A stretch of 64,000 nt of DNA, from assembly GCA_027943245.1 (NCBI GenBank), contig JANDJZ010000204.1, positions 1 to 64,000 of the forward strand, given 5' to 3'. Both the position numbers and the translations under genes were made by a program. The notes under the pieces were generated by a model. That model did not search any database. It saw only the letters and a program-made list of their open reading frames with translations, and was not told the origin of the DNA. The stretch comes from Acanthamoeba sp. SK_2022b (Eukaryota > Discosea > Longamoebia > Acanthamoebidae). Positions 42,019-47,955 of the stretch are shown here, one piece after another (within the stretch, counting starts at the first letter, position 1; each line of letters starts with the position of its first letter).

Positions 42019-42918
42019 TCAATCGATTTGGCTTTTTTGCTGATACAGCGGGATGTCTTCGCCGATGATGTACTTGTTGCGCAGCATCGACGAGACCTTA
42101 TCCATGATCATCACCACCACCACCAGGATCAGGGTGATGAACATCACCACGTCCCAGTTCCACAGCCGCATGTTTTCCGCGTACACCAGGCCGATGCCGC
42201 CGGCGCCGACGAAGCCCAGCACCGCCGCAGAGCGAGTGTTGGACTCGATCTGGTACAGGCTGAGCGCCAGGAAGGTGGGGAACGATTGGGTGAAGATGCC
42301 GTAGCGGTGCTTCTGCAACCCGTTGGCGCCCACCGCCGTCAGGCCGCGGCTGGGGGACTTGTCCACCGCCTCGTGCCCTTCGGCGTACAGTTTGCCCAGC
42401 AGCCCGACGTCCTGCATCACGATCGCCAACACCCCGGCCAGCGGCCCCATGCCGACGGCGCGCACGAAGATCAGCCCCCAGATCGCCATGTCGATACCGC
42501 GCAGCACGTCCAGCAAGCGGCGCACCAGCACGGAGATCGGCCGCAGCAGCGGCGTCGACATCACGTTGCGCGCGGCGAAGAACGACAGCGGCAGCGCGAT
42601 CAGCGACGCGGTGATGGTGCCGGCGAACACGATGGCGATGGTGATGCCGATCTGCTGAAAGTAGTACATGAACGGCCAGTTGACGAAGTCGTGCCAGACG
42701 AACATGCGCAGGAAATAGCGCCCCAGCTGCTGGCAGCCGTTGATAAACTGCGGCCAGGTAATGCCGAAGACCAGGAAGAAGAACACATAGTACAGCACGA
42801 TCGCCAGCGCGATCAGGCCGACGGTGCGCAGGTAGCGCCCCTGCTGCGCGAAGATCGCAGGATGCTGTTGTTTCAACTGGCGCAGCGTTTCCGCCGACGC
42901 CGGAGTGCCCGCTATCAT
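42019..42918 (-). CDS. phnE: Phosphonate-type ABC transporter permease, second PhnE
   Basis: 299 residues with about six membrane helices and the permease loop VGANGLQKHRYGIF. It contains the PhnE-type GAGGIGLVYAENMRLWNWD segment. Its ATG overlaps the stop of the first phnE by 4 nt. The operon carries two PhnE copies, which would form a heterodimeric channel. Confidence 0.9.
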   Translation of the reverse strand: MIAGTPASAETLRQLKQQHPAIFAQQGRYLRTVGLIALAIVLYYVFFFLVFGITWPQFINGCQQLGRYFLRMFVWHDFVNWPFMYYFQQIGITIAIVFAGTITASLIALPLSFFAARNVMSTPLLRPISVLVRRLLDVLRGIDMAIWGLIFVRAVGMGPLAGVLAIVMQDVGLLGKLYAEGHEAVDKSPSRGLTAVGANGLQKHRYGIFTQSFPTFLALSLYQIESNTRSAAVLGFVGAGGIGLVYAENMRLWNWDVVMFITLILVVVVMIMDKVSSMLRNKYIIGEDIPLYQQKSQID

Positions 42919-43778
42919 TTTGCCCCCTCCACCACGCGCTTACGCAGCTCGCCCGACACGTAGTCGAGCACGGAAACCACCACGATGATCAACAGCAGCG
43001 TCATGCTGACCTGATCGTAGCGGTCGAGTTTAATGTTGGTCATCAGCTCCTGGCCGATGCCGCCCGCGCCCACCAGCCCCAAAATGGTCGACTGACGGAA
43101 GTTGATCTCCAGCCGCATGAAGCTGTAGGAGAGAAACACCGGCTTCACCTGCGGCCACAGGCCGAAGCGCATGCGCTGCAGCGGCGTGGCGCCGCAGGCC
43201 GCCAGCCCGCGCACCGGTTTGTTGGAGGCGGTTTCGATCGATTCGTAGAACAGCTTGGTCAGGCTGCCGATGGTGTGCAGCGCCAGCGCCAGGAAGCCGG
43301 GAATGGCGCCGATGCCGAACGCCATCACGAACATCACCGCCCACGCCAGCTCCGGCATGGTGCGCAAAAACGCCACCAGCGTGCGGATCGCCAGCCGCAC
43401 CGAGGCCGGGGTATAGGTGTTGCTGGCCGCCAGAAACGCCAGCACGGTCGCCACCAGCACCGAGAAAATGGTCGCCGCCAGCGCCAACTGCAGGGTCTCC
43501 CAGATCAGCGGCAGCTGGATATTCAGGCGGTAACCCCAGTAGGCCAGCGAGCCCTCGGTGCGCCCGTCGGCGAACAGTAAATGCCAATGCAGCGTCGGAA
43601 TGGTTTCGGCCAGGTAGTCGAAGAAGTGCGGAATAGACACCCAGACGGTGTGCAGGTTGAACTCGGCGAGGTTGCCGGCGCCCAGGTACAGCACCACCAG
43701 TCCGAGCGACCACAGCAGCGCTTCGCGCTTTTGCTTGCTGCGGATCCGTTGGTAATAGTGTGCGAAATCGGTATTCAA
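42915..43778 (-). CDS. phnE: Phosphonate-type ABC transporter permease, first PhnE
   Basis: I place the start at the TTG at 43778, with GGAAG about 7 nt upstream, giving 287 residues of normal family length. An in-frame ATG at 43832 lies inside a perfect hairpin and would add 18 unrelated residues, so I think it is not used. The protein has the permease loop RGLAACGATPLQRMRFGLWPQ and the GAGGIGQELM segment. If the TTG is wrong, the ATG is the alternative. Confidence 0.85.
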   Translation of the reverse strand: MNTDFAHYYQRIRSKQKREALLWSLGLVVLYLGAGNLAEFNLHTVWVSIPHFFDYLAETIPTLHWHLLFADGRTEGSLAYWGYRLNIQLPLIWETLQLALAATIFSVLVATVLAFLAASNTYTPASVRLAIRTLVAFLRTMPELAWAVMFVMAFGIGAIPGFLALALHTIGSLTKLFYESIETASNKPVRGLAACGATPLQRMRFGLWPQVKPVFLSYSFMRLEINFRQSTILGLVGAGGIGQELMTNIKLDRYDQVSMTLLLIIVVVSVLDYVSGELRKRVVEGAK

Positions 43779-43803
43779 AAGAGGTCTTCCATCTTTATGG
43801 AAC

Positions 43804-43829
43804 AAGGGGTTCAGCACGCTGAACCCCTT
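43804..43829. repeat. Perfect intra-operon hairpin between phnD and phnE
   Basis: AAGGGGTTCAG (43804-43814) and CTGAACCCCTT (43819-43829) pair over 11 bp with a 4-nt loop. No U-tract follows. It is placed between the binding-protein gene and the first permease gene, as in the osmF-yehY junction, and could stabilise the phnD message. Confidence 0.7.
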
Positions 43830-43856
43830 CATTCGGACGGCCGAGGCAGCCGGGAA

Positions 43857-44789
43857 TTAACGGTCGCCTTTAGTCAGCTCGCGCTTCATATCGATGATGT
43901 TCTGGTATTCCGCCAGGGTGGTGTCGCCGATGTGCTGTTTGCCGCCCATCGCTTTGATAAAGCACTGGTGATCGTCTTTATCCAGCTTCTTGATCGCGGT
44001 GACCACTTTGGCCTTGAAGTCGGCCGGCAGCGAGTTGCTCACCAGGATCGGGCCGTTCGGGATCAGCGGCGACTGCCAGATGATGCGGATCTGTTTCATC
44101 AGGTCAGGGTGATCCATGCGGATCATGCGGGTGAACGCGCCGCTGGTGTAGCCGGTGTTGTAGTCGCCGATCATCGACGCCCAGGTCACCGCGCCTTCGA
44201 ACTGGCCGTTCAACACGCCGAGAATGTCCTGCTCGTGGCCGCCGGAGAAGGTGACGCTGGAGAAGGTGTTGTTGTATTTGTTGTCGACCGTGCCGCCGAA
44301 CAGCTTTTTAAACGCCTGGTTCGGGATCAGGAAGCCGGAGGTGGAATCCGGATCGGCGAAGCCGATGGCCTTGCCTTTCAGGTCTTCCAGTTTCTGGTAC
44401 GGGCTGCCGGCCTTCACCACCACCACCGAGTGGTAGCCGCGCGACTGGTCGACGTCGTCGACCGCGATGCCGACGATGTCCACCGCTTTCGGATCCTTGA
44501 TGTAGACCGAAGCGAACGACGACGGCGACATGCTCAGCACCAGGTCAATCTTGCCGCCCAGCAGGCCCTGGATCACGCCGGAATAGTCGGACGAGTTGCG
44601 CAGCTTGGTATCGACGTTCAGCTCTTTATCCAGAAACTGCTTCACGCACTGGTTATCGCCGATCTGCTGGGTGGCGTTCTGGCCGCCGAGAATGCCCAGG
44701 TTCAGCTCTTTCGGCGCATCCGCTGCGGCAGCATTAAATACCATCATCGCGCCGGCCATCAGGGTGGTCAGACTCAATACTTTTTTCAT
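43857..44789 (-). CDS. phnD: Phosphonate-type ABC transporter substrate-binding protein PhnD
   Basis: 310 residues. Sec signal peptide (MKKVLSLTTLMAGAMMVFNA, cleavage near AAADA), then the PhnD fold (LNLGILGGQNATQQIGDNQC, LGGKIDLVLSMSPSSFASV, DPDSTSGFLIPN). It binds phosphonate or phosphate ester. It lies 41 bp after phnC. Confidence 0.9.
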   Translation of the reverse strand: MKKVLSLTTLMAGAMMVFNAAAADAPKELNLGILGGQNATQQIGDNQCVKQFLDKELNVDTKLRNSSDYSGVIQGLLGGKIDLVLSMSPSSFASVYIKDPKAVDIVGIAVDDVDQSRGYHSVVVVKAGSPYQKLEDLKGKAIGFADPDSTSGFLIPNQAFKKLFGGTVDNKYNNTFSSVTFSGGHEQDILGVLNGQFEGAVTWASMIGDYNTGYTSGAFTRMIRMDHPDLMKQIRIIWQSPLIPNGPILVSNSLPADFKAKVVTAIKKLDKDDHQCFIKAMGGKQHIGDTTLAEYQNIIDMKRELTKGDR

Positions 44790-44830
44790 TAGGTGTGCCT
44801 TGTGTGTAAAGGGTAAAGGTCAAAAGTGCT

Positions 44831-45664
44831 TCAATGGATCTGATTGGCTTCTTCGCCATACAGCTGGTGCAGGATCCGTTCGTTCAGTTGCGAAGGATGC
44901 CCGTCAAACACGATCTTCCCGTGGGCGATGCCGATCACCCGCGAGCAATACTCTTTCACCAGTTCGACCGAGTGCAGGTTCACCATCACCGCGATGCCGT
45001 CTTCGCTGATTTTCTGCAGCGCGTCCATGATGCGGCGGGTGTTTTTCGGATCGAGCGACGCGACCGGCTCATCGGCCAGCAGGATTTGCGGGTTTTGCAT
45101 CAGCGCGCGGCAGATGGCGACGCGCTGCATTTGGCCGCCGGAGAGGTTCTCGGCGCGCTGCAGCGCGTGCGGCAGCATGTTGAGCCACTGCAACAGCTCG
45201 ATGGCGCGAGCGCGGTCGGCGTCATCGAACAGTTTGAAGAAGGATTTCAGAGTGGAAGTGTGGCTCAGACGGCCCAGCAGCACGTTGGTCATCACGTCCA
45301 GCCGCGGCACCAGGCAGAAGTCCTGGAAGATCATGCCGCAGCGCGCGCGCCACTGGCGCATCTGGCGGCCGGCCAGCTGAGCGATATCCTGCGCCACGCC
45401 ATCGTCTTCGAAGTGCAGCATCTCGCCGCAGCTGGAAGGAATGGTGCCGTTCAGGGTGTGCAGCAGCGTGGACTTGCCCGCGCCGGAACGGCCGATCACC
45501 GCCACGAATTCGCCGGCATGCAGATCGAAATTGATGTCATCCAGCACGCGCTGCTGCGCTTTGTAGGCCTTGCCGAGTCCCTTTACCGATAAAACTTTGC
45601 GGGATGCGGCGGCGTGCTGCCCTGGAAAGTCGTGCTGTGCCAATTTTAACAGTGCCTGAGCCAT
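44831..45664 (-). CDS. phnC: Phosphonate-type ABC transporter ATPase PhnC
   Basis: 277 residues. Walker [10 protein letters not shown] near residue 59, signature [15 protein letters not shown] and Walker [14 protein letters not shown]. First gene of phnC-phnD-phnE-phnE. A C-P lyase cluster is not present in the window, so the imported compound might be used by enzymes elsewhere. Confidence 0.9.
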
Positions 45665-45781: not shown

Positions 45782-46822
<1,041 letters not shown>

Positions 46823-46832
46823 TCAACGCCAC

Positions 46833-46863
46833 AAAAAATAATGCCGCCAAACCGGCGGCATTA
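46833..46863 (-). terminator. Attenuator terminator before trpS2
   Basis: On the minus strand TAATGCCGCC and GGCGGCATTA pair perfectly over 10 bp with a 5-nt loop (stem 46839-46863), followed at once by TTTTTT (46833-46838). It lies 44-74 nt before the trpS2 start. Confidence 0.88.
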
Positions 46864-46908
46864 AAAAGAGATGTGAATACTCGTGCCGCCTCAGAAGAGG
46901 CGCCACCA
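46854..46908 (-). promoter_or_regulatory. trp-type attenuator: pause hairpin and antiterminator region
   Basis: Hairpin 1:2 is the stem CGCCTC/GAGGCG with a 4-nt loop at 46887-46902, directly after the two Trp codons (46903-46908). Segment 2, GGCGGCA (46884-46890), is exactly complementary to TGCCGCC (46854-46860), the upstream arm of the terminator, giving an antiterminator. A ribosome stalled at the Trp codons would block 1:2, free 2:3 and prevent the terminator. Confidence 0.85.
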
Positions 46909-46944
46909 TGACTGATTGTGGGTGGAGTGCAACGATATATTCAT
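46891..46944 (-). CDS. trpL-like: Leader peptide with tandem Trp codons
   Basis: 17 codons plus stop: MNISLHSTHNQSWWRLF. Codons 13 and 14 are both TGG (46903-46908). The stop TGA lies in hairpin 1:2. The ribosome-binding site is weak (GATGGC). The peptide has no other evident function. Reading it as a regulatory leader depends on the hairpins that follow. Confidence 0.85.
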   Translation of the reverse strand: MNISLHSTHNQSWWRLF

Positions 46945-46952
46945 GCCATCAA

Positions 46953-46979
46953 GGTATACCCGCAGCGGCAGCGCGTCAA
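46953..46979 (-). promoter_or_regulatory. Likely promoter of the trpS2 leader
   Basis: On the minus strand TTGACG (46974-46979) and TATACC (46953-46958) resemble -35 and -10 boxes, with a short spacer of 15 bp. No typical TrpR operator is visible. Confidence 0.45.
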
Positions 46980-47079
46980 TAGCCCGCCGCCGGCGCGTAA
47001 GACGGCGTTACACTCCGGCATTTGCGTTCCTGGCCTGGCGCGCTAGGGTAAAACCTTCAACCTGAAAAAGGAGCGCATG

Positions 47080-47955
47080 ATGAAGATCGGATTTGCCGGA
47101 CTGGGTGGGATGGGCAGCGCCATGGCGGCCAACCTGTTGCAGACGGGCTTCGCCTTAACGGTATGGAACCGCTCGCCGCAGGCGGCACAGCCGCTGATGA
47201 GCGCCGGCGCGCAGCAGGCCGAACGGCCGGAGCAGCTGGCCGATGCCGACGTGCTGATCACCATGCTGGCCGACGATGCCGCCACGCAACAGGTGGTGGT
47301 CGACAGCGGGTTGCTGCAACGGATGAAACCGGGCGCGCTGCATATCAACATGGCAACCATCTCGGTCGAACTCGCCCAGCGTTTGACGGCGCTGCATGCG
47401 GAACACGGCATCGGCTATCTCGCCGCGCCGGTGCTGGGACGGGTCGACGTGGCCGCCGCCGGCAAGCTGAATATTCTGGCGGCCGGCGATAGCGAGCTAC
47501 TGAAGCAAGCGCAGCCGCTGTTCGATGCCCTCGGCCAGAAAACCTGGCACTTCGGCGCCGATCCGGCGCAGGCCAACGTCGTCAAGATCGCCACCAACTT
47601 TACGCTGGCCAGCGCCATTGAAGCGATGGCGGAAGGCAGCGCGCTGGTGCGCAACTACGGCGTGTCCGGCGCCGACTACCTGCAGATGCTGAGTAGCACC
47701 GTCTTCGCCGCCCCGGCCTATCAGGGCTATGGCGCGCTGATCGCCGCCGAGAAGTATTCCCCCGCCGGATTCCGGCTGGCGCTGGGGCTGAAGGACGTCG
47801 GGCTGGCGCTGGCCGCCGGGGCCGAAAGCCATACGCCGATGCCGTTCGCCGGGGTGCTGAAAGACAACTTCCTCGACGCGATGGCGCAGGGGGATGCGGA
47901 TCTGGACTGGGCCGCGCTGGCCAAGGTGGCGGCGCGGCGGGCGGGCCTGAAATAA
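47080..47955 (+). CDS. Beta-hydroxyacid dehydrogenase family (3-hydroxyisobutyrate dehydrogenase-like)
   Basis: 291 residues from the second ATG at 47080, which has better spacing to AGGAG than the ATG at 47077. NAD(P) motif GFAGLGGMGSAMAANL at the N-terminus, the HINMATISVELAQ catalytic segment and the C-terminal KIATNFTLAS with the active Lys. It might reduce small aldehydes such as glyoxylate or succinic semialdehyde. It is divergent from the trpS2 unit, and no functional link is evident. Confidence 0.87.
   Translation: MKIGFAGLGGMGSAMAANLLQTGFALTVWNRSPQAAQPLMSAGAQQAERPEQLADADVLITMLADDAATQQVVVDSGLLQRMKPGALHINMATISVELAQRLTALHAEHGIGYLAAPVLGRVDVAAAGKLNILAAGDSELLKQAQPLFDALGQKTWHFGADPAQANVVKIATNFTLASAIEAMAEGSALVRNYGVSGADYLQMLSSTVFAAPAYQGYGALIAAEKYSPAGFRLALGLKDVGLALAAGAESHTPMPFAGVLKDNFLDAMAQGDADLDWAALAKVAARRAGLK

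Follow-up and report, generated by a model that had tools for sequence, protein, structure and literature searches.

A putative Trp-codon attenuator, probably leaderless and with a probably lineage-dependent second output, conserved before auxiliary tryptophanyl-tRNA synthetase genes

How might a second tryptophanyl-tRNA synthetase (TrpRS) gene be turned up when charged tRNA-Trp runs short? The question is raised by trpS2, a gene of the window, by which we mean the whole stretch of 64,000 nucleotides analysed here (contig JANDJZ010000204.1, positions 1 to 64,000, assembly GCA_027943245.1, deposited under Acanthamoeba sp. SK_2022b). Its product scores over the TIGR00233 trpS cut-off and under the cut-offs of more specific trpS models. 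The closest solved structures are 2a4m (named tryptophanyl-tRNA synthetase II) and 1yi8 (tryptophanyl-tRNA synthetase), and identical proteins carry names from Serratia ureilytica and S. marcescens. A preliminary description had called the gene a second TrpRS that is not of the E. coli type, and both terms hold, since the same assembly also contains a trpS of the E. coli type (protein identity 31%; 83% identical in DNA to trpS of E. coli). In the 500 nt before its match there is no TGGTGG. C273 of the assembly has a third TrpRS match, which is partial (29%). The assembly measures 44.9 Mb in 1129 contigs, far above a Serratia genome, which probably makes the window a bacterial contig within a mixed assembly. 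Phosphonate ABC transporter genes occupy 42019-45664 on the same minus strand, beginning 117 nt past trpS2 (phnC and phnD models over cut-off, two further ORFs besides).

We consider it highly probable that the region before trpS2 is a ribosome-mediated attenuator which ties the gene to shortage of charged tRNA-Trp, that its leader is probably leaderless, and that the same family stands before beta- and gammaproteobacterial trpS2 genes. The elements, in the order of transcription, are as follows.

46974..46979 (-): TTGACG, -35-like, 17 nt before the -10-like element; TTG at 16 to 18 nt in 37 of 60 leaders
46951..46956 (-): TACCTT, -10-like (TAnnnT), its last base exactly 6 nt ahead of the leader ATG; transcription predicted to start at 46944
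46891..46944 (-): leader peptide ORF, 17 codons, MNISLHSTHNQSWWRLF, ending SWWRLF; ATG 46944-46942, stop TGA 46893-46891; probably leaderless
46903..46908 (-): tandem Trp codons TGG TGG, the proposed stall site; W outside the WW pair in 0 of 60 leaders
46887..46902 (-): pause hairpin 1:2, CGCCTC-TTCT-GAGGCG, from sequence and fold; kept in 96.9% of alignment cells, counted in the marine-type set
46884..46890 (-): segment 2, GGCGGCA; 2:3 pairing kept in 96.1% of cells of the set that includes the window
46854..46860 (-): segment 3, TGCCGCC, common to 2:3 and 3:3', hence the two are mutually exclusive
46833..46863 (-): hairpin 3:3' and six T, an intrinsic terminator by terminator scan (11 pairs)
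46845..46860 (-): tip T of the 3:3' hairpin (end of 3, loop, start of 3'), from pairing tests with segment 4
46814..46828 (-): segment 4, able to form 14 pairs with tip T, several of them G-U, with one mismatch; from T:4 energy against shuffles
46797..46801 (-): trpS2 Shine-Dalgarno, AGGAG; predicted opening cost 5.1 (3:3') against 2.5 (T:4) kcal/mol
45782..46789 (-): trpS2, second TrpRS, 335 aa, from the TIGR00233 match, structure matches and identical proteins

Read base for base, the leader peptide, the adjacent TGG codons and the 6-bp pause hairpin are present as first described. The complementarity of GGCGGCA (46890-46884) to TGCCGCC (46860-46854) is exact and gives a 7-bp antiterminator, and the terminator stem (46863-46839) consists of 10 Watson-Crick pairs and a single G-U pair, with TTTTTT (46838-46833) directly behind it. 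A terminator scan of 46500-47300 returned two overlapping sites against 0.8 in shuffles, the 11-pair site being the leader terminator; 31 nt separate the end of the U-run from the AGGAG of trpS2. RNA folding, which had been proposed as a check, was run on 191 nt: the leader folds well (z -3.2; 1 of 200 shuffles equally good), but its minimum-energy fold contains T:4, preferred over the terminator, and since this is an equilibrium fold, the preference gives no information on folding during transcription. With the Rfam Trp_leader model RF00513, the window reaches 25 bits (E 0.0054), below the gathering cut-off of 41 bits, and so gives no match at gathering. A T-box was rejected for the window (no RF00230 match there and, among the 20 loci searched, only in L068), and the Rfam search likewise rejected any other family.

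We infer the following response to charged tRNA, with termination in vivo. When Trp-tRNA is ample, the ribosome would pass both TGG codons and reach the stop just before segment 2; covering segment 2, it would allow hairpin 3:3' to form, and in Serratia transcription would end at the six U. When Trp-tRNA is scarce, the ribosome would stall on TGG TGG and segment 2 would pair with segment 3, which would block the terminator and let trpS2 be transcribed. Most likely, the RNA begins with the leader ORF. Where a lineage lacks the U-run, the choice of hairpin would probably set whether segment 4 covers the trpS2 Shine-Dalgarno or sits with the hairpin tip: once 3:3' has formed, segment 4 would be free to cover the Shine-Dalgarno, and when 2:3 opens 3:3', the tip could hold segment 4. 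We take the Serratia output to be the terminator; the Shine-Dalgarno step is likely in marine genera and possible in Serratia.

Is such a leader found before related genes? A scan of named genomes gave 579 confirmed loci, of which the best 80 were kept; the test set comprised 60 of these (L004-L062 and L080), nearly all beta- or gammaproteobacterial by title. An ATG-started ORF of 10 to 30 codons with TGGTGG, within the 300 nt before the match, precedes trpS2 in 56 of these 60 related loci drawn from the best 80 of 579, against 0.42% of dinucleotide-shuffled upstreams and 24 of 2382 other 300-nt stretches of the same loci, counts that are not independent because the loci are mutually related. 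The four without a leader are L055 (Acinetobacter), L061 (a Rhabdochlamydia MAG), L027 (only 231 nt upstream) and L021 (an extra copy). Among the other 20 of the best 80 loci (L063-L079, L081-L083), L064 and L066 alone have a TGGTGG ORF. The WW pair lies 2 to 4 codons from the stop in 58 of 61 leaders. The preliminary description had named loss of the Trp codons and hairpins in relatives as grounds against it; across genera the tandem codons recur and the hairpins are kept (2:3 in 96.1% and 3:3' in 89.0% of cells), so that comparison of sequences supports the trp-type reading.

The presence of the leader also goes with trpS2 being a second TrpRS. At least two TrpRS over the cut-off were found in 38 of the 39 genomes searched, and the exception, Acinetobacter sp. 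NIPH 2699 (G035/L055), has a sole TrpRS, which is of this family and has no WW leader. Upstream of the primary trpS from these genomes, a WW ORF was seen in 1 of 20 cases (L100).

Pairing was counted by lineage. The enterobacterial-type alignment (A2) holds 18 sequences, 17 of them distinct: 16 of the 18 enterobacterial-type loci (without L026 and L034), the window and L004. Besides 2:3 and 3:3' at the levels given above, tip:segment 4 is paired in 92.8% of its cells, and about 67% show pairing between segment 4 and the zone of the Shine-Dalgarno. The marine-type alignment (A3) holds 16 of 22 loci, L007, L023, L037, L044, L049 and L050 being left out as longer or gapped; here 2:3 is paired in 90.6% of cells, 3:3' in 84.4% and 4:Shine-Dalgarno in 94.8%, next to the 1:2 level listed above. 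Tip:4 over 12 pairs stands at 96.4% in this set, with 7 pairs changed on both sides (95.8% in another count), and drops to 29-63% when the partners are slid by 1 to 3 columns. Tested on cells, 2:3 and 3:3' were kept with changes on both sides beyond 500 shuffles. For the beta-like alignment (A4; 9 of 14 loci, without L052, L056, L057, L060 and L062), tip:4 reaches 87.9% of cells, a level that is weak because 39 of 500 shuffles equalled it.

Locus by locus, with automatically chosen hairpins, tip:4 outdid shuffles of the downstream stretch at p <= 0.05 in 47 of 58 loci (L018, L019 and L062 had no hairpin call). The window was scored as a miss in this test (p 0.56), its hairpin having been wrongly chosen; with the hairpin named by hand, T:4 has -22.3 kcal/mol against a shuffle mean of -13.8 (p 0.004). 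Direct pairing of segment 4 with the Shine-Dalgarno reached p <= 0.05 in 24 of 61 leaders, distributed as 15/22 marine, 5/18 enterobacterial, 3/6 of an Aeromonas-like group and 1/14 beta-like; in the window it was not significant (p 0.25). By a strict terminator scan, 20 of the 60 related loci have an intrinsic terminator in their leader, and the 22 marine-type loci have none. Lineages that have no terminator would probably regulate trpS2 translation through segment 4. The 3:4 helix as a terminator of the marine set was rejected: U-runs after segment 4 vary between loci, as read off the alignment and uncounted.

Accessibility of the Shine-Dalgarno was modelled in three ways. With hairpins picked by hand, a choice that makes the test not blind, the opening cost was lower with tip:4 than with 3:3' in 22 of 23 loci, by a mean of 5.1 kcal/mol; in the window it falls from 5.1 to 2.5 kcal/mol, with hardly any change in L031 and L051. 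When folding was compared between a stalled ribosome and one at the stop, 43 of 60 loci had the expected sign, with a mean of 0.8 kcal/mol and a value of -0.2 for the window. Enforcing 2:3 versus 3:3' with automatic helices gave it in 42 of 57 (lower opening cost with 2:3; window 0.0), and the sign was opposite by at least 1 kcal/mol in L005, L006, L007, L014, L023, L032, L042, L056, L057 and L060, for several of which the automatic choice probably took a different hairpin. These less constrained folding models are weaker, and they give nothing for the window.

Where does the leader RNA begin? As the leader ATG we took the one that brings the peptide nearest to 17 codons, a choice made without regard to the promoter; of 61 leaders (those of the window, of 56 loci and of 4 plasmid loci), 60 were usable, L036 being dropped. 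A TAnnnT ends exactly 6 nt before this ATG in 37 of the 60, against a mean of 1.5 and a maximum of 6 in single-base shuffles; 23 of 60 leaders have none at exactly 6 nt, and a TAnnnT ending 7 nt before the ATG adds 7 more. Above the -10 place, TTG stands at 16 nt in 5 leaders, at 17 nt in 23 and at 18 nt in 9, and both motifs occur together in 28 of 60, the window included (TTGACG, 17 nt, TACCTT, GATGGC, ATG). A Shine-Dalgarno-like triplet is absent before the leader ATG in 50 of 60 and present before trpS2 in 60 of 61. Transcription starts about 7 nt after a -10 element, and with the 6-nt spacing it would begin at the leader ATG, so that the leader mRNA is probably leaderless. A generic sigma-70 scan of 46500-47300 returned no promoter, the candidate here having 8 of 12 consensus bases against a threshold of 9. 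In these respects the preliminary description was incomplete: the leader probably has no leader sequence of its own, the family is far wider than Serratia, and the output in many genera is probably access to the Shine-Dalgarno.

Several other explanations have to be weighed. The region could be a plain trp-type attenuator and nothing else, with an ordinary 5' untranslated region and T:4 as an effectless leftover in Serratia. The terminator parts alone would suffice for regulation, and the Shine-Dalgarno tests are flat for the window (-0.2 and 0.0 kcal/mol; direct 4:Shine-Dalgarno p 0.25). However, this account leaves aside the fixed promoter-like spacing, the leader ATG that has no Shine-Dalgarno before it, and a T:4 helix in the window that beats shuffles and halves the predicted opening cost, from 5.1 to 2.5 kcal/mol; we consider it rather unlikely. 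Chance, that is, a short WW ORF next to an ordinary intergenic terminator, would draw on the fact that a terminator-like site by itself is nothing unusual (0.8 are expected in 46500-47300), but the presence of a leader at 56 of 60 loci, when about 1% of control stretches have one, and pairs kept through changes on both sides make it hardly credible.

The remaining two accounts concern the signal and its direction. The nascent peptide might arrest the ribosome in the manner of TnaC with free Trp, or might act in trans like peTrpL of Sinorhizobium, the signal then being something other than codon hunger; such leader peptides exist, according to the excerpts of PMC8429421 and PMC7298713. The leader peptides, however, vary widely apart from the initial M and the near-terminal WW (R follows WW in 35 of 60), and W is confined to the WW pair in all 60, so we regard this as very improbable. 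For marine lineages, stalling might instead lower trpS2, since 2:3 takes segment 3 away from segment 4, which then covers the Shine-Dalgarno. A 9-pair 3:4 part is in fact the best-kept helix of the marine set, paired in 96.5% of cells and with changes on both sides at 6 of its 9 pairs, and it competes with 2:3, and 15 of 57 loci have an equal or higher opening cost under 2:3. Yet under 2:3 the loop and the start of 3' are still free to hold segment 4 (tip:4 kept in 95.8%), the opening cost is lower under 2:3 than under 3:3' in 42 of 57 loci, and wherever the hairpin acts as a terminator stalling must turn the gene up. We judge a turn-down improbable, and retain the reading in which stalling would raise trpS2: the auxiliary TrpRS gene has a genuine Trp-codon attenuator, conserved and of a familiar type, probably leaderless and probably with a lineage-dependent second output.

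The closest known layout is that of the E. coli trp operon leader (RF00513), which, like the window, has a short ORF with tandem Trp codons and the 1:2, 2:3 and terminator hairpins. The window differs in that it would control a TrpRS gene and not trpE, has an extra segment 4 downstream, and probably lacks a 5' untranslated region and Shine-Dalgarno for its leader. In erm-type translational attenuators, an antibiotic makes the ribosome stall within the leader ORF, and this exposes a masked Shine-Dalgarno; by description, the release proposed for marine lineages is alike, whereas the trigger differs, an antibiotic there and codon hunger here. The Firmicutes T-box places aminoacyl-tRNA synthetase genes under charged-tRNA control, including a TrpRS of the same family (a T-box lies upstream of L068, from a Clostridiales MAG); it differs in binding the tRNA directly, and none was found in the window or the proteobacterial loci searched. 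A TrpRS gene leader of Streptomyces was reportedly studied by experiment by Vecchione and Sello in 2010.

An attenuator-like Trp-codon leader is predicted before trpS2 of Streptomyces avermitilis (excerpt of PMC1262725), and in the S. lividans trpL2-trpS pair, trpL2 has one W (MMTRTCTQLWRAA), the excerpt of PMC8079986 mentioning only a U-enriched stretch. These actinobacterial leaders resemble the window by description, with one or more Trp codons in an attenuator-like leader before a TrpRS gene. Caulobacter crescentus has a leader CDS before trpS, again a small ORF in a proteobacterium as far as the excerpt of PMC4117421 describes it, although an alphaproteobacterium. The leaderless trpL of Sinorhizobium meliloti is an attenuator RNA that starts at the ATG of its Trp leader ORF, as we propose here; it belongs to an alphaproteobacterium and controls trpE(G) (excerpt of PMC7298713). 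Term look-up did not find trpS in the accessible parts of PMC2659441 (Shewanella cis-RNAs), PMC2965389, PMC4833913 and PMC8632094, nor trp or synthetase in that of PMC10219788. The preliminary description knew of no account for an enterobacterial trpS2, and our search, which covered titles and abstracts and little of the subscription literature, found none for trpS2 of beta- or gammaproteobacteria. For Streptomyces, leaders with Trp codons before trpS are known; the beta/gamma form did not turn up in the literature searched. For Salmonella, trpS2 (STM4508) is listed as up 2-fold in biofilm, alongside trp genes and trpR (excerpt of PMC2805695), and TrpS2 is suggested as a possible replacement for TrpS (excerpt of PMC3487940).

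Do other genes have a similar leader? A covariance model built from A2 was searched in 16 genomes, and its best match lay directly before trpS2 in 15 of them (exception G005); 12 of these 15 leaders were already in the model, the new ones being those of G002, G003 and G008 only. Six other or non-top matches were examined: two Leu leaders, one Shewanella trpS2 leader and three seemingly unrelated. The weaker matches, at 36.1 and 32.8 bits, fall before a sodium-dependent transporter gene in Edwardsiella and Hafnia genomes. A Leu-rich leader, MPVQRRLLNLLLLLST, stands there in Edwardsiella (L134, L140, reverse strand) and one with a GTG or TTG start in Hafnia (L135, L141), followed by a GCCGCC hairpin, a U-rich tail and a stretch like segment 4; in Edwardsiella, ACTCCGG faces CCGGAGT. 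The Aeromonas copies showed no clear Leu leader, and we treat the Leu-codon leader as a lead only. A wider view, in which one leaderless Trp-codon leader has exchangeable outputs (a terminator, a Shine-Dalgarno lock via segment 4, or both, perhaps in Serratia) and the same relay has been joined to a Leu-codon sensor before the sodium-symporter gene of Edwardsiella and Hafnia, is tentative, and we would give it slightly less than an even chance.

If the attenuator reading is true, it would explain how many bacteria hold a second TrpRS low until Trp-tRNA charging fails, through lack of Trp or a TrpRS inhibitor: judging from these sequences, the spare enzyme can probably be turned up when Trp-charged tRNA runs short. 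The lineages would form a natural series, one codon sensor with a terminator, a Shine-Dalgarno lock or both, in which the step from transcriptional to translational attenuation is directly testable. A leaderless leader peptide in enterobacteria, if true, would be a convenient test of leaderless translation in starvation.

Four plasmid records carry trpS2 with the leader (two from E. coli, one from Klebsiella, one from Salmonella), and 2 of 5426 E. coli genomes match, both on plasmids; among the genomes searched, the chromosome of E. coli K-12 is without trpS2. The E. coli plasmid genes adjoin insertion elements; at L087:2206-4999 the neighbours are IS26 and an incomplete gene for a tryptophan permease, mtr, and at L086:484-4990 an IS3000 transposase. 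TrpRS relatives occur on 156 records of a plasmid collection (26 Staphylococcus, 24 Klebsiella; some records are chromosome-sized). No plasmid matched the window leader. A phage-borne origin was rejected, as none of 8 pattern matches in viral contigs was confirmed. The small RNA isrQ (RF01399) was considered as this leader and rejected: in Salmonella (L088:1-129, minus) it is encoded on the strand opposite to the leader, starting from the leader ATG and pointing away from trpS2. It is placed between STM4508 and STM4509, with no reads, in the excerpt of PMC2515195. The extra same-family TrpRS copy in Pseudoalteromonas luteoviolacea HI1 (L021:3001-3999), which has no leader, has a methyltransferase, an aminotransferase and a LuxR gene as neighbours, a setting reminiscent of the indolmycin cluster in the excerpt of PMC5069768, which includes a tryptophan-tRNA ligase of its own.
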